A stretch of 34,950 bases of DNA from NCBI GenBank assembly GCA_027069135.1, contig JALXFE010000611.1:1-34950 (forward strand), read 5' to 3'. Position 1 is the stretch's first letter. Each line of letters starts with the position of its first letter. Both the position numbers and the translations under genes were made by a program. The notes under the pieces were generated by a model. The model did no database searches and was not told where the DNA came from. It was given only the letters and a program-made list of their open reading frames with translations. Positions 1,437 through 19,484 of the stretch are shown piece by piece. Source of the DNA: Thermoanaerobaculia bacterium (GTDB taxonomy: Bacteria; Acidobacteriota; Thermoanaerobaculia; Multivoradales; JAHZIX01).

Positions 1437-2021
1437 CTAGAGGGCAGCCATAGCCCCAGGGAGGTCGGGCTCCAAGTCTTCGAGACGCTCCAGGTCCGCC
1501 CGCGCCGCGACCCTTGTTAGAACCGTCGCCAGGTCCTCGGAAGAAAGCTCCGCCTCCGGGAAGTCAGCGGGAGAAAGCTGGCCACCGCTGCGTCCCAGGG
1601 CCGTGCTTCTAAGGGCCCCACGATGCGACCGTCGGTACTCGGCAACCTGTGCAGGCCTCGCCCCGAGGGATGGTTGCCAGCTCGGTTCAAGCTGGCCCGC
1701 CAGTTGGGCAATCGTCGGATTTTCGAAAAGTTGACGGGACGTCAGAGCGATGGATCTCTTCTGGGCCTTGGCTACGATGCGGATACTGAGGATCGAATCG
1801 CCCCCCAGATCAAAGAAATTGTCCTCTGCGCCCACCGACTCGAGGCCAAGAACCTCTTGCCAGACTTCTGCCAGGAGGGCTTCCAACGGTGACTTCGGGG
1901 CCACCGGAGGCTGCTCTGAAAGAAAAGGGTCATAGGACCGCTCTTCCAGCAGGCGTCCGAGAAGTTGTCGTTTGGCTGGTGAGAGGCGCCGGATGCGTTC
2001 GCTAACGCGTTCCCTCCTCAC
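1437..2021 (-). CDS. Stand-alone NRPS peptidyl carrier protein
   Basis: The protein (194 aa) carries a thiolation domain with the phosphopantetheine site FFDLGGDSILS; the serine is about residue 76. It is preceded by a linker of the type LSPAKRQLLGRLLEE that often separates adenylation and carrier domains in nonribosomal peptide synthetases. After the carrier, the sequence LSPADFPEAELSSEDL resembles the (T/S)PSDFPL segment I know from NRPS module ends. No adenylation, condensation or thioesterase domain is present, and the frame upstream of the start shows no NRPS sequence before a stop. The GTG at 2021 is preferred because AAGGAG precedes it by six bases; a TTG at 2042 is the alternative. 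It could be a trans-acting carrier or the remnant of a deleted synthetase. Confidence 0.7.
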   Translation of the reverse strand: MRRERVSERIRRLSPAKRQLLGRLLEERSYDPFLSEQPPVAPKSPLEALLAEVWQEVLGLESVGAEDNFFDLGGDSILSIRIVAKAQKRSIALTSRQLFENPTIAQLAGQLEPSWQPSLGARPAQVAEYRRSHRGALRSTALGRSGGQLSPADFPEAELSSEDLATVLTRVAARADLERLEDLEPDLPGAMAAL

Positions 2022-2247
2022 GGGCAGCTCCTTCCGAAACAAAAAGAAAATATAGCGCTGACCATGTTGGGTGCCGGGCCAGCGACAATGATTCTATGTT
2101 GTAGAGATACCAAACGTCTAGAGCTTCTTCGCAGCTCGTCCAAAGGCAGCCCTCACCTACCCCCGATTCTCACAAAATTTCTTCGCAATTCCGCAGAATT
2201 TATGAGTGCACTATGGGCAGATAAAGAGAGCGCCAGGGAGATTTCAT
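2022..2247. other. Intergenic region between the carrier gene and lon
   Basis: Divergent spacer, more AT-rich than its neighbours, with no convincing gene. An imperfect inverted repeat at about 2174-2201 (AAATTTCTTCGC against GCAGAATTT around an AATT centre) could be an operator for lon or for the carrier gene. This is weak evidence. Confidence 0.3.
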
Positions 2248-4858: not shown

Positions 4859-5015
4859 CGACCGCCTTCCTGCTAAAGTGCGTTCGTCCGAGCCCTTCCA
4901 TCGCCCCTCTTCTTCTGCCTGCTGCCCTGCTGTAGCGGGTGAGGAACGAGGACTCATGGATGGCGGTTCGAGGGTCGAACGGCTAGCCCGGACTTCTGGG
5001 AGGAACGTGAGCTGG

Positions 5016-7778
5016 GTGCATAGAACGAAGCAACGATACCCCTGGCTTCGAGGGCTCCCCTTCGCTCTTCTCTCGATCCTTCCGGGCCTCCCGGGCCCGG
5101 CCCATGCCCTGGATCCAGACCGGGCGGTCACCCAATATTTACAGCATCATTGGACCGCCGAGGACGGGCTTCCCGCGGCTCCGATCCGGGCTCTCACCCA
5201 GGACCCGGTCGGATATCTGTGGGTTTGGACCTCCGAAGGCTCCGTCCGCTTCGATGGCAAGAGCTTCTCCGAAGGGAATCCGACGGCGCCCCCCGGAGCC
5301 GCTTCGGGGCAGGCGGCGAGCCGACCCTCAGTCCGGGACCGAGATGGGAACCTCTGGGAGAGCTCTCCTCGAGGCCTGATCCGCCATCGGCGAAATTCTC
5401 CCGATTCGACGGCACCGGGAGATCTGCTGAGCCTCACAGCGGACGCGGACCTTGGGACGATTACCTCCCTCCTGGAAGATCGGGAAGGAAGCCTCTGGAT
5501 CGGCACCGAGGACGCCGGCCTCTTTAGGCTCGACGACGGGGACTTCTTGCTTTGGGGCACAGCGGAAGGGCTCTCGTCATCGGCCGCCCGCACCGTGTTT
5601 CAGGATCACTCCGGAACTCTTTGGATCGGCACCGACGGGGGCGGATTGAACCGTCTACAAGACGGCGACGTCACCACCTTCTCCACTGAGGACGGCCTGC
5701 CCAGCAACGTCATCCTATCGATCTGTGAGACCCGACCCGGCACTCTCTGGATCGGCACCGCCGGTGGCGGTCTCAGCCGATTCCGGGACGGTCGCTTCAA
5801 GACCTATTCGACCACCGACGGCCTCACCAGCGCCGCGGTGACCAGCCTGCTCAGTGATCGCCAGCGCAATCTGTGGATCGGTACCGCCGGCGGTGGCTTG
5901 AACCGCTATCGCAGAGGCCAATTCGATGCCTTCACGACCGAGGACGGCCTCTCCGACGACATCGTCCGCGCCCTGCTGCAGGACCGGGACGGTGATCTAT
6001 GGATCGGGACCGATACCGGCCTCAACCGATTCCGCAACGGAAACATCACCACCTACTCCACGGCTCAGGGCTTGGCCGGCGACCAGATCCTGGCCCTTCA
6101 CCAAGATCGGGACGGCGTGCTGTGGATCGGGACCGACGCCGGCCTCAGCCGGAAGGATGGAGAGGGATTCATCTCCTTCAAGCGAAGGCAGGGATTGTTC
6201 AGCGAGGGACTCGGTCAAATCCTTGACGACTCTCAAGACCGCCTCTGGTTCTGTTCGCAGAAAGGACTCTTCTACCTGGAAAAGCCCAGCCTCGAAAGAC
6301 TGAGCCTGCAAGGGGGTCGCAGGGTTGCGGCCCAGCCGATCCCGGCGGCTCGTCACCTCGATTGCAGCGGCTACAACCAACCGGCAGCGTGGGGCGATCG
6401 GGACGGCCATCTGTGGTTCGCGACAAATTCCGGAGTCCTGGAGCTCGATCCGCAGAATCTATCCCCGCCGCCGGCTCCACCGGTGGTCTTGGAGAGAGTG
6501 CGAACCCGTCTCAAGGATCTCTCGCCGAGCGAGCCGGGACGGCTTCCCGTCGGTCGCCGAGACATCGAATTCCACTACACGGCCCTTTCCCTGAAGAACG
6601 CTTCGCAGGTTCGCTTTCGGGTTCGCCTCGACCCCTTCGACCCGACCTGGATCGATGTCGGAACCCGGCGCAGCACCCGCTACACCAACCTCCCGACCGG
6701 ATCCTTTCGATTTCGCGTCGCCGCTTCCGTCGGGGGCCCTTGGAGCCAACCGGAAGCGGTCTATCGTTTGGCCGTGCCCAAACCCATGTACCGCACCAAG
6801 GCCGCTGTTTCGGCCTTCCTTCTGCTGGGCCTCGTCCTCGGCCGCGGTGTGTACCAGTTGCGGGTTCAACACCTGGTCCGCCGCAACCGGAAGTTGGCGG
6901 CGCAAGTCGCCGAAGGCACTCGCCAAGTGGAAGCGAAAAAACAGGAAGTGGATCGCGCGAACCAACGCCTCGCCATCGCCAATCGACGGCTGCAGAGGGC
7001 CAATGAAGAGCTCTTCGAGCTCGACCAGGAGAACACCGACTTCCTCGCCTTGGCCGCCCATGATCTTCGCGAGCCCCTGGTGACCCTGCAGGGCTTCGCC
7101 GGGGAGCTGCACAGCGTTCTCGAGATCTTGAAAGAAACTTCTGAGGCTCTCGAAGACCTCCCCACCCCGGAGCAGAGACAGCTCCTGACGAGAGCCCTGA
7201 CTGAAGACGCGCCGGAGGCCTTGAGCTTTATCGACACCTCGACGGAGCGCATGGATCAGCTCATCCACGGGCTCATGAGCCTCTCCCGACTGGGCCGCCA
7301 GAAGCTGCACTTCGAGCCCGTGGATTTGGAAGCCCTCGTCCGGGAAGTCCTGAGGAACCTCGGCTACCAAATCTCCAGCCAGGGCGTAGAGGTGGAAACC
7401 CGAAGCCTGCCCTCCGTCGTCGCGGATCGCGCCTCTTTGAAATTGGTTTTCGAGAACCTGCTCAACAACGCCATTCTCTACCTCCAGCCCGGGCGCTTGG
7501 GGCGCATCCTCATCTCCGGGGAAGAGACCGCGGAAGGCTTCACCTTTTCGGTCAGCGACAACGGTCGGGGGATCTCGGAAGCGGCCCGGCCCAAGATCTT
7601 TCAGGTCTTCGGGCGCGGGGATCCACCCCAGATTCCCGGGGAAGGCCTCGGCCTTGCCTTCGTGCGCGCCGCCTTGGAGCGCCACGGCGGAAGCATCGAC
7701 TATCAATCTCAACCGGGTGAAGGGACGACGTTCATCTTCTCCCTCCCCCATCTCGAGCCGGAAGAAACAGATGTTTGA
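5016..7778 (+). CDS. Membrane histidine kinase with two-component-regulator propeller sensor
   Basis: Sensor kinase of about 920 aa. A signal peptide ending PGPAHA is followed by a periplasmic beta-propeller with nine or so LWIGT-type repeats (about 60-480), a Y_Y_Y domain (about 510-590), one membrane helix (about 595-614), a coiled coil, a HisKA domain with phosphoacceptor His682 in AAHDLREP, and a HATPase domain with intact N (NLLNNA), G1 (DNGRGIS) and G2 (GEGLGLAF) boxes. Unlike the Bacteroidetes hybrid systems, it has no receiver or HTH domain, so it must signal to a separate response regulator. The GTG at 5016 gives a compact signal peptide and has GGGAGG upstream. ATG 4956 and GTG 5007 are alternatives; with ATG 4956 the region before the hydrophobic core is unusually long. 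It overlaps the next kinase gene. Confidence 0.92.
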   Translation: MHRTKQRYPWLRGLPFALLSILPGLPGPAHALDPDRAVTQYLQHHWTAEDGLPAAPIRALTQDPVGYLWVWTSEGSVRFDGKSFSEGNPTAPPGAASGQAASRPSVRDRDGNLWESSPRGLIRHRRNSPDSTAPGDLLSLTADADLGTITSLLEDREGSLWIGTEDAGLFRLDDGDFLLWGTAEGLSSSAARTVFQDHSGTLWIGTDGGGLNRLQDGDVTTFSTEDGLPSNVILSICETRPGTLWIGTAGGGLSRFRDGRFKTYSTTDGLTSAAVTSLLSDRQRNLWIGTAGGGLNRYRRGQFDAFTTEDGLSDDIVRALLQDRDGDLWIGTDTGLNRFRNGNITTYSTAQGLAGDQILALHQDRDGVLWIGTDAGLSRKDGEGFISFKRRQGLFSEGLGQILDDSQDRLWFCSQKGLFYLEKPSLERLSLQGGRRVAAQPIPAARHLDCSGYNQPAAWGDRDGHLWFATNSGVLELDPQNLSPPPAPPVVLERVRTRLKDLSPSEPGRLPVGRRDIEFHYTALSLKNASQVRFRVRLDPFDPTWIDVGTRRSTRYTNLPTGSFRFRVAASVGGPWSQPEAVYRLAVPKPMYRTKAAVSAFLLLGLVLGRGVYQLRVQHLVRRNRKLAAQVAEGTRQVEAKKQEVDRANQRLAIANRRLQRANEELFELDQENTDFLALAAHDLREPLVTLQGFAGELHSVLEILKETSEALEDLPTPEQRQLLTRALTEDAPEALSFIDTSTERMDQLIHGLMSLSRLGRQKLHFEPVDLEALVREVLRNLGYQISSQGVEVETRSLPSVVADRASLKLVFENLLNNAILYLQPGRLGRILISGEETAEGFTFSVSDNGRGISEAARPKIFQVFGRGDPPQIPGEGLGLAFVRAALERHGGSIDYQSQPGEGTTFIFSLPHLEPEETDV

Positions 7779-10062
7779 GATCCGGCAGCATCGAGGGCGG
7801 ATGGGCGCAGCCGCTCTCGGGTCGATCCTCCTCTTGGCGACACCGGGGACTTCTGAGGCGTCGCCGACCCTGCCGGAGCTCATTCACCGGCAGTGGAAAA
7901 CCACGGACGGCCTTCCCCACAACACGGTGACGGCTCTCGCCCAGGACAGCACCGGATATCTATGGATCGGTACCGTAGAAGGGCTCGTGCGCTTCGATGG
8001 CGAAGTCTTCACCGTCTTCGACACCAGCACCACTCCGGAGCTTCGAACCAACTTCGTCAACACCCTTCTAGCGACCCGGGACGGGGGCCTGTGGATCGGT
8101 ACCCGTAGGGGCCTCAACCGCTATGAGGGAGGAGTCTTTAGCCTTTACACCTTGGCCGATGGCCTTGCCGGGGACGTCATCGAGGACCTTGCCGACGACG
8201 GAAACGGCACCCTGTGGATCGGTACCCGCGGAGGCCTGAGCAGCTTCTCCGACGGGATGTTCCATAGTTTCGAGGCTGTGGACGGCCTGGCCGGCCCGAC
8301 GGTATTCTCCCTCGCCTTCGACTCCCGGGGAGACCTTTGGGTTGGAGCCAAGGAAGGTCTCTTTCGCTACTCCGACGGCAGCTTCCGCCAATTCGGTCAG
8401 GACCGAGGCCTACGGGACAACTTCGTCGTATCTCTTGAAGCAGGACCGGGCCAGGATCTCTGGGCGGGTACCCTCGACGGGGGTCTCCACCATATCGACA
8501 CCGAGAGCTTTCAGGTGGTTCCGGCGCTTCCCCGGACACCTCCCCGACTCGTCTTCAGTCTCCATCACGACGAGTCCGGCGTCCTTTGGATCGGTACTCG
8601 CACCGGGCTGGAACGCTCTGTCGAAACATCCGGACAGCAGATCCCGGAGATCGGTGACGACCTGGTGATGAGCCTCTTAGAGGATCGAGATCGGCGCCTC
8701 TGGGTGGGAACCCTCCAGAACGGTCTCCACGTCTTGGAAGCCCAGGGCTCCCCAAGATCCGGCGAGCCGCCAATCGTCATGGAGAGCCTCGTCTTCCAAC
8801 AGCAGAGTTTCCTCCCGGACCAGGAGCTGACCCTTCCCAAGGGCCGCGCCGATATAGAGTTCCGCTATACCGCCATCGACTTCGACGATTCTCAGCATCC
8901 TCGCTTTCGGTACTTCTTGGAAGGCTATGACGACTTCTGGGTCGATGCCGGACGTCAGCGCCATGCGGTCTACACCAATCTCCCCCCCGGTAAGTATCGA
9001 TTCCGCGTGCGTAGCGCTCGCGGTCGTAGCGACGTCGCTGAGGCAGCCTATTCCTTCGAGGTTCCGGCACGCTTTTACCAGACCCGGATCTTCAAACTTC
9101 TCGCCCTGGTGGCGATGGCTTCAAGCCTCTGGGGCTTGTTTCTCTGGCGCATCCGCCGGTTGCTCCGGACTCGTATCCTTCTCCAGGAGCGCATTGCCGA
9201 GCAGACCCAGGAAACCCTGAAACAGAGTGATCAACTGGAAGACTTCCATCAACGGCTGGACCGAGCCCACCACCAACTCCGACAAACCAACCGGGAGTTG
9301 AAGAGCCGCAACCGGGAGAAGGCAGATTTCCTCGCCATCGCGACCCATGATCTTCGAGCCCCCCTCGTCAATCTCAAGGGCTTTGCGGCAGAGCTCCGAT
9401 ACTCCCTCGACCAAATCCAAGGGGCCCTGACACCGGCCCTCCGGACCCTCTCTCGAGAGCAAGCGGAGCGGGGCCGCAAAGCTCTGGAGGAAGACGGCCC
9501 GGAAGCGCTCAGCTTCATCGAGGGCTCAGCCCAGAGGATGGAAGACGTGATCGGCCCGATCCTGAAGATGTCCAGATTGGTTCGCCAGCCGCTCAGGATA
9601 CAACCGGTCAGCCTGAAGGAGTGCCTCGATCTCGCCCTCTCCAAGCTCGCCAAGGATCTCGAAGCCTCGCAGGCCGTTCTCGAGATCGGGGAGCTCCCCT
9701 CCCTGCTGGCAGACGCCCGGGCCCTTCAAGAGATCTTCTACCAACTCATCGCCAACGCACTCTCTTCTCTGGCCGGGGATCGGCCCGGCAAGATCGAGGT
9801 GCAATCCCGGCGCGGCCATCACCGGATCCAAATCTCTGTTCGGGATAACGGTCGTCCCCTGGAGGGCCGTCGAGCTTCACGGCCCTTCCAGCTCTTCGGC
9901 CGACCCGTTGACGGAGCTCCGGCAAACCCCGAGATGGGGCTTGGATTCGTCCGGATTCTCGTTCAAAGACATGGCGGAAAGGTTTGGCACGAATCAAATC
10001 TCAGCATAGGTAATACCTTCTATTTTTCTATTCCAAGAGAACCTTCTCCGGTCAGCCCATAA
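7771..10062 (+). CDS. Second propeller histidine kinase, degenerate G1 box
   Basis: Paralogue (763 aa) of the preceding kinase. Its ATG lies inside the end of that gene (8-base overlap, ATGTTTGA), which indicates translational coupling. Order: signal peptide (1-30, ending TSEA), LWIGT propeller repeats (about 45-330), Y_Y_Y domain (about 345-430), membrane helix (about 441-461), coiled coil, HisKA with His526 in ATHDLRAP, then HATPase. The N box (QLIANAL) and G2 (EMGLGF) are recognisable, but G1 reads DNGRPLEG instead of the DNGxG of an active kinase, as in its neighbour (DNGRGI). It may bind ATP poorly and act as a partner of the first kinase, perhaps in a heterodimer. No response regulator is adjacent on the same strand. 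The ORF continues upstream in frame, but the ATG at 7771 is the only start that places the signal peptide at the N-terminus. Confidence 0.9.
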   Translation: MFEIRQHRGRMGAAALGSILLLATPGTSEASPTLPELIHRQWKTTDGLPHNTVTALAQDSTGYLWIGTVEGLVRFDGEVFTVFDTSTTPELRTNFVNTLLATRDGGLWIGTRRGLNRYEGGVFSLYTLADGLAGDVIEDLADDGNGTLWIGTRGGLSSFSDGMFHSFEAVDGLAGPTVFSLAFDSRGDLWVGAKEGLFRYSDGSFRQFGQDRGLRDNFVVSLEAGPGQDLWAGTLDGGLHHIDTESFQVVPALPRTPPRLVFSLHHDESGVLWIGTRTGLERSVETSGQQIPEIGDDLVMSLLEDRDRRLWVGTLQNGLHVLEAQGSPRSGEPPIVMESLVFQQQSFLPDQELTLPKGRADIEFRYTAIDFDDSQHPRFRYFLEGYDDFWVDAGRQRHAVYTNLPPGKYRFRVRSARGRSDVAEAAYSFEVPARFYQTRIFKLLALVAMASSLWGLFLWRIRRLLRTRILLQERIAEQTQETLKQSDQLEDFHQRLDRAHHQLRQTNRELKSRNREKADFLAIATHDLRAPLVNLKGFAAELRYSLDQIQGALTPALRTLSREQAERGRKALEEDGPEALSFIEGSAQRMEDVIGPILKMSRLVRQPLRIQPVSLKECLDLALSKLAKDLEASQAVLEIGELPSLLADARALQEIFYQLIANALSSLAGDRPGKIEVQSRRGHHRIQISVRDNGRPLEGRRASRPFQLFGRPVDGAPANPEMGLGFVRILVQRHGGKVWHESNLSIGNTFYFSIPREPSPVSP

Positions 10063-10102: not shown

Positions 10103-10132
10103 AAGTGCATACAATCCAATCGGAGGTGCTTT

Positions 10133-10357
10133 ATGTCGATGCCCTTGTCGAATTTCCTGATTGAAGTAAGCCAGAATCCTGCCCTCGTCCGGAAGCTACG
10201 CGACCAACCCGAGGTGGTCGGTAAGGAAGCCGGCCTCACGGCAGAAGAAATCGCCGCTCTCCTGAGTGAGGACCCTCTGCAGATCCACAAGATTCTTGAG
10301 GGAGGCCTGCAGCTGCGACCGCTGATGCTCCGGCCGCAATACGTCTTCGACAACTGA
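10133..10357 (+). CDS. Split-borosin precursor peptide (SonA-like)
   Basis: A 74-residue protein with a strong ribosome binding site (GGAGGTG). Residues 4-56 match what I recall of the borosin-binding domain of Shewanella SonA: an LSNFL start, a QNPALVRKLRDQPE helix, then AGLTAEEIAALLSED and a final helix. This helical leader binds the methyltransferase. After a GG at 57-58 comes a short hydrophobic tail, LQLRPLMLRPQYVFDN, the probable core whose backbone amides are N-methylated. The core contains a near-repeat LRP-LM-LRP; proline itself cannot be amide N-methylated, so Leu, Met, Val, Tyr and Phe are the plausible sites. The gene sits 54 bases ahead of the matching methyltransferase. A Nif11-type leader or a LigA-like domain was considered, but the partner enzyme makes borosin much more likely. 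The exact core boundary and modified residues are inference. Confidence 0.88.
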   Translation: MSMPLSNFLIEVSQNPALVRKLRDQPEVVGKEAGLTAEEIAALLSEDPLQIHKILEGGLQLRPLMLRPQYVFDN

Positions 10358-10411
10358 TTCTCAGTCATTCGTCAGGTCGGTGTTCTTCGGGCGACCCGAG
10401 GGAGGAGGCCC

Positions 10412-11206
10412 ATGGGATCTCTTGTAGTCGTGGGCACGGGGATCAGCTCCGTCGCCCAGACGACGTTGGAAGCGCGGGGCCACATGGAGCAGGCGGACAA
10501 GCTTCTCTATGTGGTCGCAGATCCGGTCACGGAGACTTGGATCCGGAGATTGAATCTCAGCGCCGAGTCGCTGGAAGACTGCTACCAGGACGGCCAGCAT
10601 CGAGGACTCGCCTACCAAGCGATGACGGACCGCATTCTCGAGTGGGTCAGGAAGGACGACACTCGGGTCTGCGCAGTCTTCTACGGCCATCCCGGAGTCT
10701 TCGTTCGCCCATCTCATGCGTCCATCCGGCAGGCCTTGGAAGAAGGATTCGAGGCACGGATGCTCCCGGGCATCTCTGCCGAGGACTGCCTTTTCGCAGA
10801 TCTTGGCTTCGACCCTGCGGTGCGGGGCTGCCAGACCTTCGAAGCGACGGATTTCCTCCTGCGCAAACCCCGCTTCGACCCCGTCTGTCACGTCATCCTC
10901 TGGCAGATCGGAGTGATCGGCGACGCGACCTACTCCTCCGAAGGCAACTACCGCGAAGACGGTCTACCGGTGCTTCGGGAAGAGCTGCTGAAGCACTACC
11001 CCGCGAGCCACGAAATCTTCGTCTACGCGGCGTCCCAATTCAGCATCGCCAAGCCCATCATTCAAAGAATGCCTCTTGAGGAATTGGGCAGGTCGACCAT
11101 CCCAACCATCGCCACCCTCTACGTACCGCCCCACGGCGAAGGGGTGAGCGATCCGGAGATGGTGAAACGTCTGGGTATGGAAGACCCTCTGAGGGCGTCG
11201 GCTTAG
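10412..11206 (+). CDS. Borosin peptide alpha-N-methyltransferase (SonM-like)
   Basis: SAM-dependent enzyme (264 aa) of the tetrapyrrole-methylase fold that iteratively methylates backbone amide nitrogens of its precursor. The N-terminus MGSLVVVGTGI, the SAM-site motif YGHPGVF and PGISAEDCLFADLGFDP followed by GCQTFEATDFLL closely resemble SonM and fungal OphMA as I remember them. Tyr58, Arg64 and Tyr68 keep the Y-x5-R-x3-Y spacing of the OphMA catalytic residues (Tyr66, Arg72, Tyr76). No leader or core is fused to it; the protein ends soon after the catalytic domain, so this is the split arrangement. The ribosome binding site GGGAGGAGG precedes the ATG. The stop overlaps the stop of the convergent receiver-LpxC gene. 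An ordinary cobalamin or diphthamide methylase is unlikely given these motifs and the adjacent precursor. Confidence 0.93.
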   Translation: MGSLVVVGTGISSVAQTTLEARGHMEQADKLLYVVADPVTETWIRRLNLSAESLEDCYQDGQHRGLAYQAMTDRILEWVRKDDTRVCAVFYGHPGVFVRPSHASIRQALEEGFEARMLPGISAEDCLFADLGFDPAVRGCQTFEATDFLLRKPRFDPVCHVILWQIGVIGDATYSSEGNYREDGLPVLREELLKHYPASHEIFVYAASQFSIAKPIIQRMPLEELGRSTIPTIATLYVPPHGEGVSDPEMVKRLGMEDPLRASA

Positions 11207-12483
11207 CCCTCGGCGGCCAGGATCTGCCGCAGGGCTGCGATGTTATCCCGGTGGCCGGTGAGCTGGGCGGTGACCCGGCCGCGGATTGGATAGCCCAGCA
11301 GGTAGAGGTCACCGACGATGTCGAGGATCTTGTGGCGGGCGAATTCGTCCGGGAACCGCAGCTCCGTATTGATGACATTGTCCTCGCCGACCAGAATGAA
11401 GTTGTCCAGGCGCCCCCCGGAGCCCAGGCCGAGCTCGTTGAGCATCTTCAGATCCCGCATGAACCCGAAAGTCCGAGCCGGGGCGATCTGCTCCTCATAG
11501 GTCTTAAAATCGGTGAGCTCGAAGGAGAAGCTCTGCTCTCCCACCGGCGCCGGGTAGCGGAGGCGATAGGAGACTGCGAACCCGTCGTAGGGTTCCAACA
11601 CGAGGGTCTTATCCCCCTCCCCGACCTGGTATCGGCGATCAACGACCAACTCCTTGCGCGGGACTCCCTGATCCTCGATTCCCGCTTCTCTCAAGAACTG
11701 GCAGAATTCCGCCGCGGAACCGTCCAACACGGGAATCTCCCCATGAACCTTGATCAGCAAATTCGTCACCCCGGCGGCATGGAGGGCGGAAAGAAGATGC
11801 TCCACCGTGCGGATACTCTCCCCGTTCCGTTGGAGCGTGGTGGCGTATTCCGTATCGGCGACCGAGGTGACATGGGCCGGCAAGAGGGTACCTCCGGGGA
11901 TGGTAAGAATGTGAATCCCTTGATCCACCGGTAGAGGTTGGAGCACCATCCCGGTGCGGGTACCGGAGTGGAGACCTAAGCCGTAGATGACGGTGTTCTT
12001 GCGGATCGTCCGTTGGGGAACATCGCTGACCCGGAGTTGAGGAAGCTCCGGCGGCGGTGTCGGTTGGCGCTTCAACTCGATGCGCTCGGCCTCTCGGGCC
12101 AGGCGCCCGGAGGGGTCTACTTTATGCTCCAATGCGCTCGTTGCGGCCTTGATGACCTGCTCGTAGGATAGCGGCTTCTCGATGTAATCTAACGCTCCAA
12201 GCTTGATGGCTCGGACTGCCGTCGAGGCGGTTCCATGGCCGGAAATCATCACGACCGCCGCCGCCGGGTCGGCCTGTCGAATCGCTTCCAGCGTCTCTAA
12301 CCCATCCCGGTCGGGCAACCAGATATCCAAGAAAACTACGTCCGGGCGTTCCGCCTCGTAAATCTGTAGAGCTTCCTCGCCGCTCTCGGTACAAAGGGTC
12401 TCGAAGCCCTCGTCCGCGAGGATGCTCGAGAGCGTCGACAAAATCCCGGGCTGGTCGTCTACGATCAGTACCTGATGAGCCAT
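11203..12483 (-). CDS. lpxC: Response-regulator receiver fused to LpxC deacetylase
   Basis: A 426-aa fusion. Residues 1-120 are a complete CheY/NtrC-type receiver with acidic pocket D9/D10, phosphoacceptor D53 in FLDIWLPDRDG, S81 in MISGHG and K103 in EKP. A proline-rich linker follows. Residues 157-426 are LpxC, the zinc enzyme that removes the acetyl group from UDP-3-O-acyl-GlcNAc in the committed step of lipid A synthesis. Its catalytic Glu228 and zinc ligands His229 (TVEHLLSALH), His384 and Asp388 (EFARHKILD), and general acid/base His411 (TGH) are all present. Ordinary LpxC is about 300 aa without a receiver, so the enzyme may be controlled by phosphorylation. AAGGA precedes the ATG. It is divergent from the sulfatase gene and convergent with the borosin methyltransferase. 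Confidence 0.94.
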   Translation of the reverse strand: MAHQVLIVDDQPGILSTLSSILADEGFETLCTESGEEALQIYEAERPDVVFLDIWLPDRDGLETLEAIRQADPAAAVVMISGHGTASTAVRAIKLGALDYIEKPLSYEQVIKAATSALEHKVDPSGRLAREAERIELKRQPTPPPELPQLRVSDVPQRTIRKNTVIYGLGLHSGTRTGMVLQPLPVDQGIHILTIPGGTLLPAHVTSVADTEYATTLQRNGESIRTVEHLLSALHAAGVTNLLIKVHGEIPVLDGSAAEFCQFLREAGIEDQGVPRKELVVDRRYQVGEGDKTLVLEPYDGFAVSYRLRYPAPVGEQSFSFELTDFKTYEEQIAPARTFGFMRDLKMLNELGLGSGGRLDNFILVGEDNVINTELRFPDEFARHKILDIVGDLYLLGYPIRGRVTAQLTGHRDNIAALRQILAAEG

Positions 12484-16360: not shown

Positions 16361-18739
16361 CTCGACGACGATCCCGGTAGAGCCCGGAGCTGGTATCAGG
16401 GTGAAGGAAATACCGCCGACGGACGCCTCCGGCAGGGGTTGCCGCGGGTCGAGAAATGGGAAACTCAGGTTTCCCTGGAGGTCGGAGACCGCCGAAGTCC
16501 AGAGGCCTGAGCGTGCAGCCTGGATGAGATGATCCGGGCCAAGCTCGAATTCCGAGAATCGAAGGACTGCCCGCGTGTTGGGCCGGGGGGCCCCATCCCC
16601 TCCGACGAGCTGAATGTGAAGGCCGGGCCCGTCCCGCTCGTCGAGCTCAACCGTAGATCCCGGTTGAAGGTCCCTAGGCGAAACGACCTCCAACCAAGTC
16701 TCCGGATGAAAGACTAACCAAGGGCGCTCTTGTCGCAGGCAAGCATCAGACAGCCGGACTCCCCCCAGGGGATCCACTTGGCCGACACAGGCGAAGTCCG
16801 GTCCGCCATCTTCGCGAAACGAAAGGAGGATCGCTCCAGCAGCGGGCTCGCCGCTCGCCAACAGGATGGCCGGTCCTACGAGTTCGTCGATGGGATCGAG
16901 GCGGACCACGAGGGTTTGAGAAGACTCTGGTGGAATCATCAGTCGTTTTTCTGAGGAGTGGAAGCTGGGTGCGGTGGCTCGCAGGTTGTAGTCTCCAGGT
17001 CTCAACCCTACATGAAGGGAGCGGCCCTCCATATCCGTCGCGATGATCATCCCTTCCGCGCTGCCTTCCTCCTCTCTTCCATGGCTACTACTGGCCTCAC
17101 CGAGGACCCCGTTATTGAAACGGGTTACCGGTGAGAGGCCATCGCTCGGGTTGAGGACCACCCATGCTCCCTCGATCGGGTCCCCGGTCGTGGAGCTCTC
17201 GACGGTGGTTTGAACTCGCGAGGGAGCATCCAACTCGATATCGAAGCGACCACTCCCGGAGAAAGTCGAGCGGTGATGGAATGTCCGGCAGGGGCCGTCC
17301 TGAGCACAGGCACGGAGCACTCCCCAGGCCGGCAAACCTCGAGGGCCGTTATTCGGTTTTCCCCCAGCCTCCGGAGGGCGGCCTTGGTAGGCATTGGATT
17401 GACCGAAGTAAAAGATATGAAAGAAAAGCCCATCGTCTGTCGGCCAGTTCCTCAGCGGTGCGAAGGAACCCATGGCGAGCAACTCTAGTCTTCCGGCAAC
17501 CGGCTTGTCTTCCAGGGTTAGCTCGCCAAAGATGTGATGTTCTTCAAGCACCTGGGGGCGACCATGGAGAGTTTCTGGGGCACCTTCGATGAACGGCGCG
17601 AGCTGATCCTCGAGGCCGAAGATCCTTTCGCCATCAATCTCCGCCCAGACCACCGTCTGTCCCCGATCCAGGTTGCCGAATCGATAGTGATGCGGGCCTA
17701 TCGAGAGAGTCTGGGATTCCCCGACCGGGAGGCAATTCCCGAGGTCGATAGCCATCAGGTTGAGGGGTCGATCCCCGCATCTGGAGATACCCACCGTCGC
17801 CTTCCGGTGGGGTCGTTGAGGCTGGTAGTCCACCAAGGCTTCCAGCGTGACTCGGCCTTGCATGGGGATTGTCATCTCATAGGCTGTCCCAGGCTGGGGT
17901 GCCAGCTTGAGCTTTTCGGAGAGAAGGAGCGGATGAGTGGCGAGCAGGAAAGACCGCTGGGCGGGAACCCCGAGAAAGAAGAAGGTCGAGCGCTGACGGT
18001 GAAAAAGAGCGGCGCTGGGCTTGAGCATTCCCGCCCCCGAGTCCTCGATCCCCAGTACGAGGCCGAGATCGCCGGGAGCAGCTTCTTCTTCCGGTTCTGG
18101 CTGTAGGTGGACCATCAGATCCTGCCGGTCCGGACCGGGCGGCTGCGGCCTCGCTAGCGGGATGGACTCGAAGGCAAGGCAGCTTTGCATAGAAGAGATG
18201 GCAAGGAGGCCGCGGGGCGATACGGTATAGGCAAGGAATCGCCCTTCCGGTATCTGTGCCGTCTCCCGTTTCGTCGGTCGTATCGGGTATGTGGCACCAT
18301 GGTCCAAAGAAACGATGTCGAGACGGGTAGCGCCCGTCCAGTCCCCTCCGGAGAAGCGCAACTCGCAAGCTGGAAGTACGGACCACAACAGGCGCTTGGC
18401 AGAGGTCCGTGGGCCGATCTGGAGCCTACCCGTATTCTTGGAGACATACCCTGGAGCCTCGGCGATCCAAGTCCAGATCCCTTCCGGTACCGCCGAGGGG
18501 ACATTCGCCTCGAGGACCAGCTCTTCGTCGAAAGAGCCTTCACGATACATATGGATCTGGCCTTCGGGAAGAATATCTTCCGGTGCTGGCCGTCCACCCT
18601 GGAATTCCGAGCTTGGCACGAGAAGGAATGTCACTTCCGCTGCAAAGGCCCGGCAAGTCGATGGAATCAGTGCCCCTGCCAGAAAGATCGCAGCCCAAAA
18701 GGGAAGGAGGTGCTTCACCAGGGGGCTTGTTGGTAGCAT
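16352..18739 (-). CDS. Large secreted protein with Ig-like/carboxypeptidase-regulatory domains
   Basis: About 795 aa with a signal peptide (LVKHLLPFWAAIFLAGALIPSTCRAFA). The body is beta-rich, and several segments have the phrase structure of carboxypeptidase-regulatory-like or other Ig-like folds, such as TTVESSTTGDPIEGAWVVLN, LHVGLRPGDYNLRATAP, and a C-terminal DLQGNLSFPFLDP. I cannot assign an enzymatic function; it may be a cell-surface or secreted binding protein. The ATG at 18739 is favoured because it starts the signal peptide; it overlaps the preceding small Cys-rich gene by 25 bases, which suggests coupled translation. An ORF extension to 18808 lies wholly inside that gene. It lies between two transposase remnants. 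Confidence 0.65.
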   Translation of the reverse strand: MLPTSPLVKHLLPFWAAIFLAGALIPSTCRAFAAEVTFLLVPSSEFQGGRPAPEDILPEGQIHMYREGSFDEELVLEANVPSAVPEGIWTWIAEAPGYVSKNTGRLQIGPRTSAKRLLWSVLPACELRFSGGDWTGATRLDIVSLDHGATYPIRPTKRETAQIPEGRFLAYTVSPRGLLAISSMQSCLAFESIPLARPQPPGPDRQDLMVHLQPEPEEEAAPGDLGLVLGIEDSGAGMLKPSAALFHRQRSTFFFLGVPAQRSFLLATHPLLLSEKLKLAPQPGTAYEMTIPMQGRVTLEALVDYQPQRPHRKATVGISRCGDRPLNLMAIDLGNCLPVGESQTLSIGPHHYRFGNLDRGQTVVWAEIDGERIFGLEDQLAPFIEGAPETLHGRPQVLEEHHIFGELTLEDKPVAGRLELLAMGSFAPLRNWPTDDGLFFHIFYFGQSNAYQGRPPEAGGKPNNGPRGLPAWGVLRACAQDGPCRTFHHRSTFSGSGRFDIELDAPSRVQTTVESSTTGDPIEGAWVVLNPSDGLSPVTRFNNGVLGEASSSHGREEEGSAEGMIIATDMEGRSLHVGLRPGDYNLRATAPSFHSSEKRLMIPPESSQTLVVRLDPIDELVGPAILLASGEPAAGAILLSFREDGGPDFACVGQVDPLGGVRLSDACLRQERPWLVFHPETWLEVVSPRDLQPGSTVELDERDGPGLHIQLVGGDGAPRPNTRAVLRFSEFELGPDHLIQAARSGLWTSAVSDLQGNLSFPFLDPRQPLPEASVGGISFTLIPAPGSTGIVVELP

Positions 18740-19125
18740 ACATTCTGCCAGCAGCTGGACCAGGGTGTCTCTACGCAGGCATGCCAAAATAGATCGCAAG
18801 ACGCCCAATCTACGCAGCCATAGTCTGCATCGCAGGGCAAGAGGCTCCCAGGGCCCTGGCTTTCTGGCGCTGGGCTCTCAGTTCCTGGAAGAAACGCAGG
18901 ATTCTGGCTTTGAATCAAGACCGGAAGATCCTCTGTTTGCGGCGCGACTTGGGAGTCCTTGGAGTCGGTACCTTGAGCCTGCGGCGGGTTCCCGTTGGCC
19001 TCCTCAGCGAGTCCGATCGTTGGTGTTAGGGCGATGACGAGGAGAGAGGCCAGAAAGGGTCCGGCGATCCGTTGCAGAAAGACGGTTCCAGGCCACGTGA
19101 AACTTGCAGATATTCCGGTGCCCAT
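18715..19125 (-). CDS. Small secreted six-cysteine protein, copy A
   Basis: About 136 aa. A signal peptide (IAGPFLASLLVIALTPTIGLA) is followed by a polar linker, a NPAFLPGTE motif, and a C-terminal domain with cysteine spacing C-x5-C-x5-C-x6-C-x7-C-x4-C, including YGCV, ASCD, FW, ACVE and SSCWQN. The same motifs and exactly the same spacing occur in the neighbouring gene at 19170-19484. I do not recognise the family. The start is uncertain: ATG 19125 fits the signal peptide and leaves a 44-base gap to the paralogue, whereas ATGs at 19152 and 19182 are in frame further upstream. Its 3' end overlaps the large secreted protein gene, so the three are likely co-transcribed. Confidence 0.65.
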   Translation of the reverse strand: MGTGISASFTWPGTVFLQRIAGPFLASLLVIALTPTIGLAEEANGNPPQAQGTDSKDSQVAPQTEDLPVLIQSQNPAFLPGTESPAPESQGPGSLLPCDADYGCVDWASCDLFWHACVETPWSSCWQNVCYQQAPW

Positions 19126-19169
19126 CGAGATTCGAGACCTAGATTCCCACATCCAGCTTAGAATTCCTC

Positions 19170-19484
19170 TCAACTCATGCATCCGTTTTGCCAGCAAGAT
19201 GAGAACGCACTCTCGACGCATGCTCGCCAGAACGGATCGCAGCTGGCACCGTGGACGCAGCCGTATTTTGGCTCACAGGGCATAATATTCTCAGCTGGCT
19301 CGACCGGTTCAGTTCCAGGGAGAAACGCCGGATTCACCGCCAGGTCAGGAGATGATGCAAGATCGGAAGTTGGTGGGTCTTGACTGGGAACCTCCTTCAT
19401 CGTAGCGCCTCCCGAAGCTGAGACCTGGGTTGGGAGGGCCAGAAAGATGAGAATGAAGATGCTGATGAAGGTTCGAGGGTGCAT
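19170..19484 (-). CDS. Small secreted six-cysteine protein, copy B
   Basis: A 104-residue paralogue of the next gene downstream. It has a signal peptide (RTFISIFILIFLALPTQVSA), a short acidic/proline linker, NPAFLPGTE, then the six-cysteine domain with YGCV, ASCD, FW, ACVE and SSCWQN in the same spacing. A good ribosome binding site (AAGGAATAAGGA) sits just before the ATG. The paired arrangement indicates a local duplication. Secretion, even cysteine number and conserved aromatic residues suggest a small disulfide-stabilised extracellular domain. A toxin, effector or binding role is not shown by the sequence. Confidence 0.7.
   Translation of the reverse strand: MHPRTFISIFILIFLALPTQVSASGGATMKEVPSQDPPTSDLASSPDLAVNPAFLPGTEPVEPAENIMPCEPKYGCVHGASCDPFWRACVESAFSSCWQNGCMS

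Follow-up and report, generated by a model that had tools for sequence, protein, structure and literature searches.

The gene pair described here raises the question of whether a small peptide and the methyltransferase encoded directly after it in an uncultured Thermoanaerobaculia bacterium make up a borosin cassette, and what such a cassette would be for. Borosin enzymes allow peptides whose backbones are N-methylated to be made ribosomally. Direct reading of the window, by which we mean the whole 34,950-nucleotide stretch that was analysed, confirms the positions and frames that an earlier note had given for two ORFs on one strand and the gap of 54 bases between them (Table 1). The same note took the pair for a two-gene split borosin, a reading that is borne out by sequence, profile, active-site residues, tree and fold; we consider it highly probable that the cassette is a split borosin, which by analogy with SonM/SonA is predicted to methylate the backbone of the precursor tail. 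Ribosome-binding sites are strong at both genes, and the third-position GC of precursor and enzyme (0.71 and 0.76) falls in the range spanned by the window's Lon, kinase and LpxC genes (0.71-0.76); by codon use the pair therefore looks resident rather than recently acquired. Scans for consensus promoters and terminators gave no match, although such a consensus says little for this phylum. No second copy of either gene was found in the host genome, an assembly of 7.17 Mb in 626 contigs that is 97% complete.

Table 1. Features of the borosin cassette and the genes preceding it (positions in the window)
Feature	Position	Strand	Basis
Sensor histidine kinase 1 (Reg_prop, Y_Y_Y, HisKA, HATPase_c); outside core cassette	4878..7778	+	Pfam; order kept in L026, L027
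Sensor histidine kinase 2 (Reg_prop, Y_Y_Y, HisKA, HATPase_c)	7654..10062	+	Pfam; order kept in L026, L027
Shine-Dalgarno of precursor gene, GGAGG	10122..10126	+	Read directly; 6 bases before ATG 10133
Borosin precursor peptide gene, 74 aa	10133..10357	+	SonA PDB matches; leave-out BBD profile; five-helix model and loose tail
Borosin binding domain (BBD), residues 1-55, predicted docking leader	10133..10297	+	SonA profile match 5-57; helices; superposition
Predicted core, residues 63-74, PLMLRPQYVFDN	10319..10354	+	SonA register and P-x-[FY]-V element; inferred
Shine-Dalgarno of enzyme gene, GGGAGGAGG	10400..10408	+	Read directly
Borosin alpha-N-methyltransferase, 264 aa, SonM-like	10412..11206	+	PDB matches; active-site residues; model; tree

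Against the PDB, the enzyme matches OphMA (6.2e-54) and SonM (3.3e-53), and no other enzyme family comes closer than 0.015, the value for a tetrapyrrole methyltransferase. The residues Tyr58, Arg64 and Tyr68, which the earlier note had singled out, were correctly named: together with Y91 they align with Y58, R67, Y71 and Y93 of SonM, and most of the relatives compared, about 105 in all, keep equivalents of the four. F97 likewise aligns with F99 of SonM. An AlphaFold model of the enzyme (pLDDT 92) superposes on SonM with a TM of 0.88, within a range of 0.88-0.91 for SonM and OphMA. In a quick maximum-likelihood tree, the check that the note had proposed for a grouping with cobalamin/siroheme methylases, the enzyme instead nests among the borosin methyltransferases with SonM and OphMA; the host's own SUMT and RsmI fall outside this group, on very long branches that leave their exact place unsure. 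A rival view, that the enzyme is a common methylase of this fold acting on tetrapyrroles or rRNA and the peptide its neighbour by chance, draws on Pfam, which assigns TP_methylase alone. However, matches to tetrapyrrole methylases are poorer by about 50 orders of magnitude, the best NCBIfam equivalogs for siroheme and cobalamin synthesis (E 0.008-0.04) lie far under their cut-offs, and the borosin tyrosines and arginine are missing from the host SUMT. As SUMT and RsmI are present elsewhere in the genome, and the peptide independently matches SonA, we regard this explanation as extremely improbable.

The precursor (MSMPLSNFLIEVSQNPALVRKLRDQPEVVGKEAGLTAEEIAALLSEDPLQIHKILEGGLQLRPLMLRPQYVFDN) gives a more modest signal on its own. 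Its top seven PDB matches are all SonA constructs, at an E-value of 0.0066, with a profile match that spans residues 5-57; a profile of seven sequences brings SonA to 3.5e-11. A profile of 68 precursors, from which the sequences of the local set had been left out to avoid circularity, finds the window peptide at E=1.2e-10, compared to 0.039 for the best of 20,000 shuffles, and matches no other ORF of the window. Matches to the peptide profile elsewhere in the host genome were dismissed as weak (E 0.65 and above). The precursor model consists of helices at residues 5-14, 16-24, 26-33, 37-45 and 48-55 and a loose tail of 19 residues, and five helices are also the layout described for the borosin binding domain of SonA (PMC8429565). 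With this model, 49 of 50 among the Foldseek matches listed are SonA or OphMA-family chains, and VIA-align places it on 7ltr_I (Z 7.4, 1.8 A over 52 residues) and 7ltc_B (Z 7.8). For helical bundles, Z scores of this size are modest, which is why the fold weighs only jointly with the sequence match; these middling scores and the peptide-alone statistic of 0.0066 were counted against the split-borosin reading. A precursor that carries a borosin binding domain is thus encoded in an ORF separate from that of the enzyme.

This architecture is already known: it is type IV if that term is taken to mean that enzyme and precursor have genes of their own (PMC8429565), and it corresponds to class 3 in the scheme of PMC11395268. 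The type IV pair SonM/SonA of Shewanella oneidensis, which has been shown to methylate (PMC8429565), resembles the window cassette in having a separate, adjacent enzyme and a BBD-core precursor of about 70 aa, in the equivalents of Y58/R67/Y71/Y93 and in a five-helix leader; the enzymes are of nearly the same length (263 residues in SonM and 264 in the window) and about 38% identical. The window differs in its phylum, Acidobacteriota, in the sensor kinases upstream, in its core and in the side-clamp loop of the enzyme, which is three residues shorter than that of SonM and has the spacing of OphMA. The fused fungal borosins OphMA and dbOphMA share the methyltransferase domain and the Y-x5-R-x3-Y spacing, and part of their clasp is homologous to the window BBD; in contrast to the separate genes here, they carry enzyme, clasp and core in one chain, which methylates its dimer partner.

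From SonM/SonA and OphMA we infer how the cassette would work. The enzyme would form a SAM-dependent homodimer, and with the precursor a dimer of heterodimers in which the five-helix N-terminal domain docks on the enzyme, leaving the flexible C-terminal tail to reach into the active-site channel. There, Y58, R64 and Y68 would stabilise the deprotonated backbone amide, whose nitrogen would take a methyl group from SAM. Methylation is expected to be iterative, proceeding in the N-to-C direction over one residue or several.

Which residues would be methylated may be judged in two ways. Superposing residues 4-72 of the model on residues 3-71 of the SonA chain brings L64 and L66 onto L63 and I65, the methylated residues of SonA (PMC8429565). 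Furthermore, a P-x-[FY]-V element is common to the window and to its family relatives L026 and L027, as PQYVFDN here and as PPVFVQSTV and RPIFVQSTV in the relatives. Likely candidates for methylation are thus L64/L66, by the SonA register, or Y70-V71-F72, and judged by conservation within the family the P-x-[FY]-V element would be the better candidate. The two relatives have longer tails, ending FVQSTVVDLAASA and FVQSTVAELPLPV; the window tail is shorter than both, differs at its end and is unconserved outside the element, which was counted against the split-borosin reading. One could propose on this basis that the cassette is of borosin origin but decayed, with a shortened tail that is no longer a substrate and nothing methylated. 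Yet the ORFs are intact, the ribosome sites are strong, the active-site residues are all kept, the genome has only this one BBD peptide, and equally short tails are found in other precursors, all of which makes decay quite improbable. Inspection of the three frames after the peptide revealed no frameshift behind the shorter tail.

Some borosin loci elsewhere have unusual components. At L031:6312-7271, L032:3224-4183 and L033:442-1401, the gene just before an intact enzyme encodes a BBD joined to a degenerate borosin methyltransferase domain; these fusions have lost the equivalents of R67, Y71 and Y93, carry FHGHPGV and have no core behind, and it is possible that they are pseudo-enzyme partners. 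A second, degenerate methyltransferase (FSGHPTICV) immediately follows the intact enzyme at L030:2603-3310. In the BBD peptides at L028:17677-18324 (-) and L030:1533-1790, repetitive lysine-rich tails (AIKAKTAPIKAKTA repeats; KKKTAKKKKKTAKKKAAKKK) replace the hydrophobic core.

Borosins had been presented in the earlier note as rare, and this was an overstatement: an alignment-based scan of GTDB species genomes revealed at least 549 stretches encoding relatives, and a review describes bacterial borosin types as widespread (PMC11285071). The best 80 of these stretches come from Cyanobacteria, Proteobacteria, Chloroflexi, Actinomycetota, Myxococcota, Planctomycetes, Gemmatimonadota, Acidobacteriota and contigs labelled as archaeal, the latter including Thermoplasmata and Nitrososphaera sp. 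AFS. Of 396 genomes sampled from the host's phylum, 13 have a match, which is strong in ten. A single-sequence scan of genome contigs found no relatives, because its short patterns are not conserved. Borosin methyltransferases occur on archaea-labelled contigs at L039, L054, L062, L066, L075, L100 and L104, possibly through contamination. The enzyme of Nitrososphaera sp. AFS groups with that of the window in the tree (support 89), and its contig is possibly a contaminant.

What distinguishes the cassette is its surroundings. The window has, in order, Lon, two sensor histidine kinases with a Reg_prop propeller, the precursor, the enzyme and a converging response-regulator/LpxC fusion. Kinase 2 stops 70 bases upstream of the precursor; its start, at 7654, was listed mechanically, and the true start is probably further in. 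Our family sample comprised four genomes, and in both of the others in which the region is assembled, precursor and enzyme lie side by side, the enzyme being 58% identical to that of the window. The pairs of HKST-UBA06 (L026/L038) and G002 (L027) agree with the window in gene order, upstream kinases and downstream fusion: G001 (L026) has the identical order including the end of Lon, and G002 differs from the window in that other genes are inserted before LpxC. The cassette therefore has a conserved address within the family (Lon, two sensor kinases, precursor, enzyme, LpxC), which is new here. Loss of the enzyme in G003, of the same genus, was considered and rejected; LpxC and the orthologous Lon are absent from that assembly as well, which points to a probable gap in it at this stretch and makes the absence there uninformative. 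Domain annotation of the neighbours agrees with the earlier note that no further tailoring enzyme adjoins the cassette, and in this respect it is minimal, as the note had called it; the description does not hold for the two sensor kinases that precede it in conserved order.

Three other features of the window are recorded here. The response-regulator receiver fused to LpxC, the lipid A deacetylase (11203-12483, -), is 76-77% identical to the fusions of G001 and G002 and suggests phospho-control of an essential envelope enzyme. Towards the left end, an ORF at 1437-2042 (-) with a phosphopantetheine carrier domain (PF00550) is perhaps part of an NRPS/PKS remnant. Two adjacent small ORFs, at 18715-19221 (-) and 19170-19484 (-), end in cysteine-rich stretches that are related to each other (YGCV..ASCD.FW.ACVE..SSCWQN), match no Pfam family and are possibly paralogous secreted peptides.

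The conserved kinases bear on the purpose of the cassette. A methylated peptide could serve signalling, as a regulator or ligand of a kinase, instead of being a secreted product, an alternative that differs from the split-borosin reading in purpose and not in chemistry. Two sensor kinases lie directly upstream on the same strand and are conserved in the family; only four Y_Y_Y matches occur in the host genome, two of them at the cassette. No protease or exporter adjoins the cassette among the annotated neighbours, which fits a signalling purpose and was counted against the split-borosin reading; if there is one, it would be encoded at another locus, or else the tail would stay bound to its leader.

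Kinases also adjoin the cassette in other lineages. When loci were grouped by the tree, 9 of 36 clades had a kinase no more than 700 bases away in half or more of their members, with retention of 3/3, 5/5, 3/3, 8/8 and 11/17 within clades. In Acidobacteriota other than the host, a Ser/Thr kinase, in most cases one with TPR repeats, frequently abuts the cassette, and at L028 (7942-18928) a unit of forward Ser/Thr kinase, reverse BBD peptide and forward enzyme is repeated three times in tandem. In Alteromonadales a histidine kinase follows the precursor at 8/8 loci; the three of these kinases that were scanned are hybrids carrying two receiver domains. The cyanobacterial clade has a Ser/Thr kinase at 11/17 loci. 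Retention of the kinase within clades argues for function, and the adjacency suggests that some borosins may take part in signal transduction. However, kinases are abundant (32-110 Ser/Thr kinases per genome in most genomes), 27 of the 36 clades do not show this linkage, and kinases might simply regulate expression. The probability of finding 9 of 36 clades depends on the assumed chance rate: 9e-6 at 4%, which is our own estimate and about what genome kinase counts suggest, 1.7e-3 at 8% and 0.02 at 12%. As both the clades and the rate were chosen by hand, and the loci picked by similarity to the window enzyme, the enrichment is suggestive only. Taken together, a signalling purpose is conceivable but rather doubtful, and it is unlikely that there is a kinase-coupled subset, including the window cassette, in which the methylated peptide, perhaps still attached to its leader, partners the neighbouring sensor or Ser/Thr kinase.

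Among titles, abstracts and counts in the literature, and leaving aside the two main split-borosin surveys, we found no paper that links borosins and kinases in substance, and the literature searched states no biological role for bacterial split borosins. As a split borosin, the cassette is a pair that is both compact and testable, and it comes from a lineage that has been little studied; its interest is moderate and would be greater should the association with kinases turn out to be functional. Its kinase-side address, echoed in cyanobacteria, Alteromonadales and other Acidobacteriota, provides a concrete hypothesis for what some borosins do: if the kinase-coupled reading is true, borosin chemistry would serve bacterial signal transduction.
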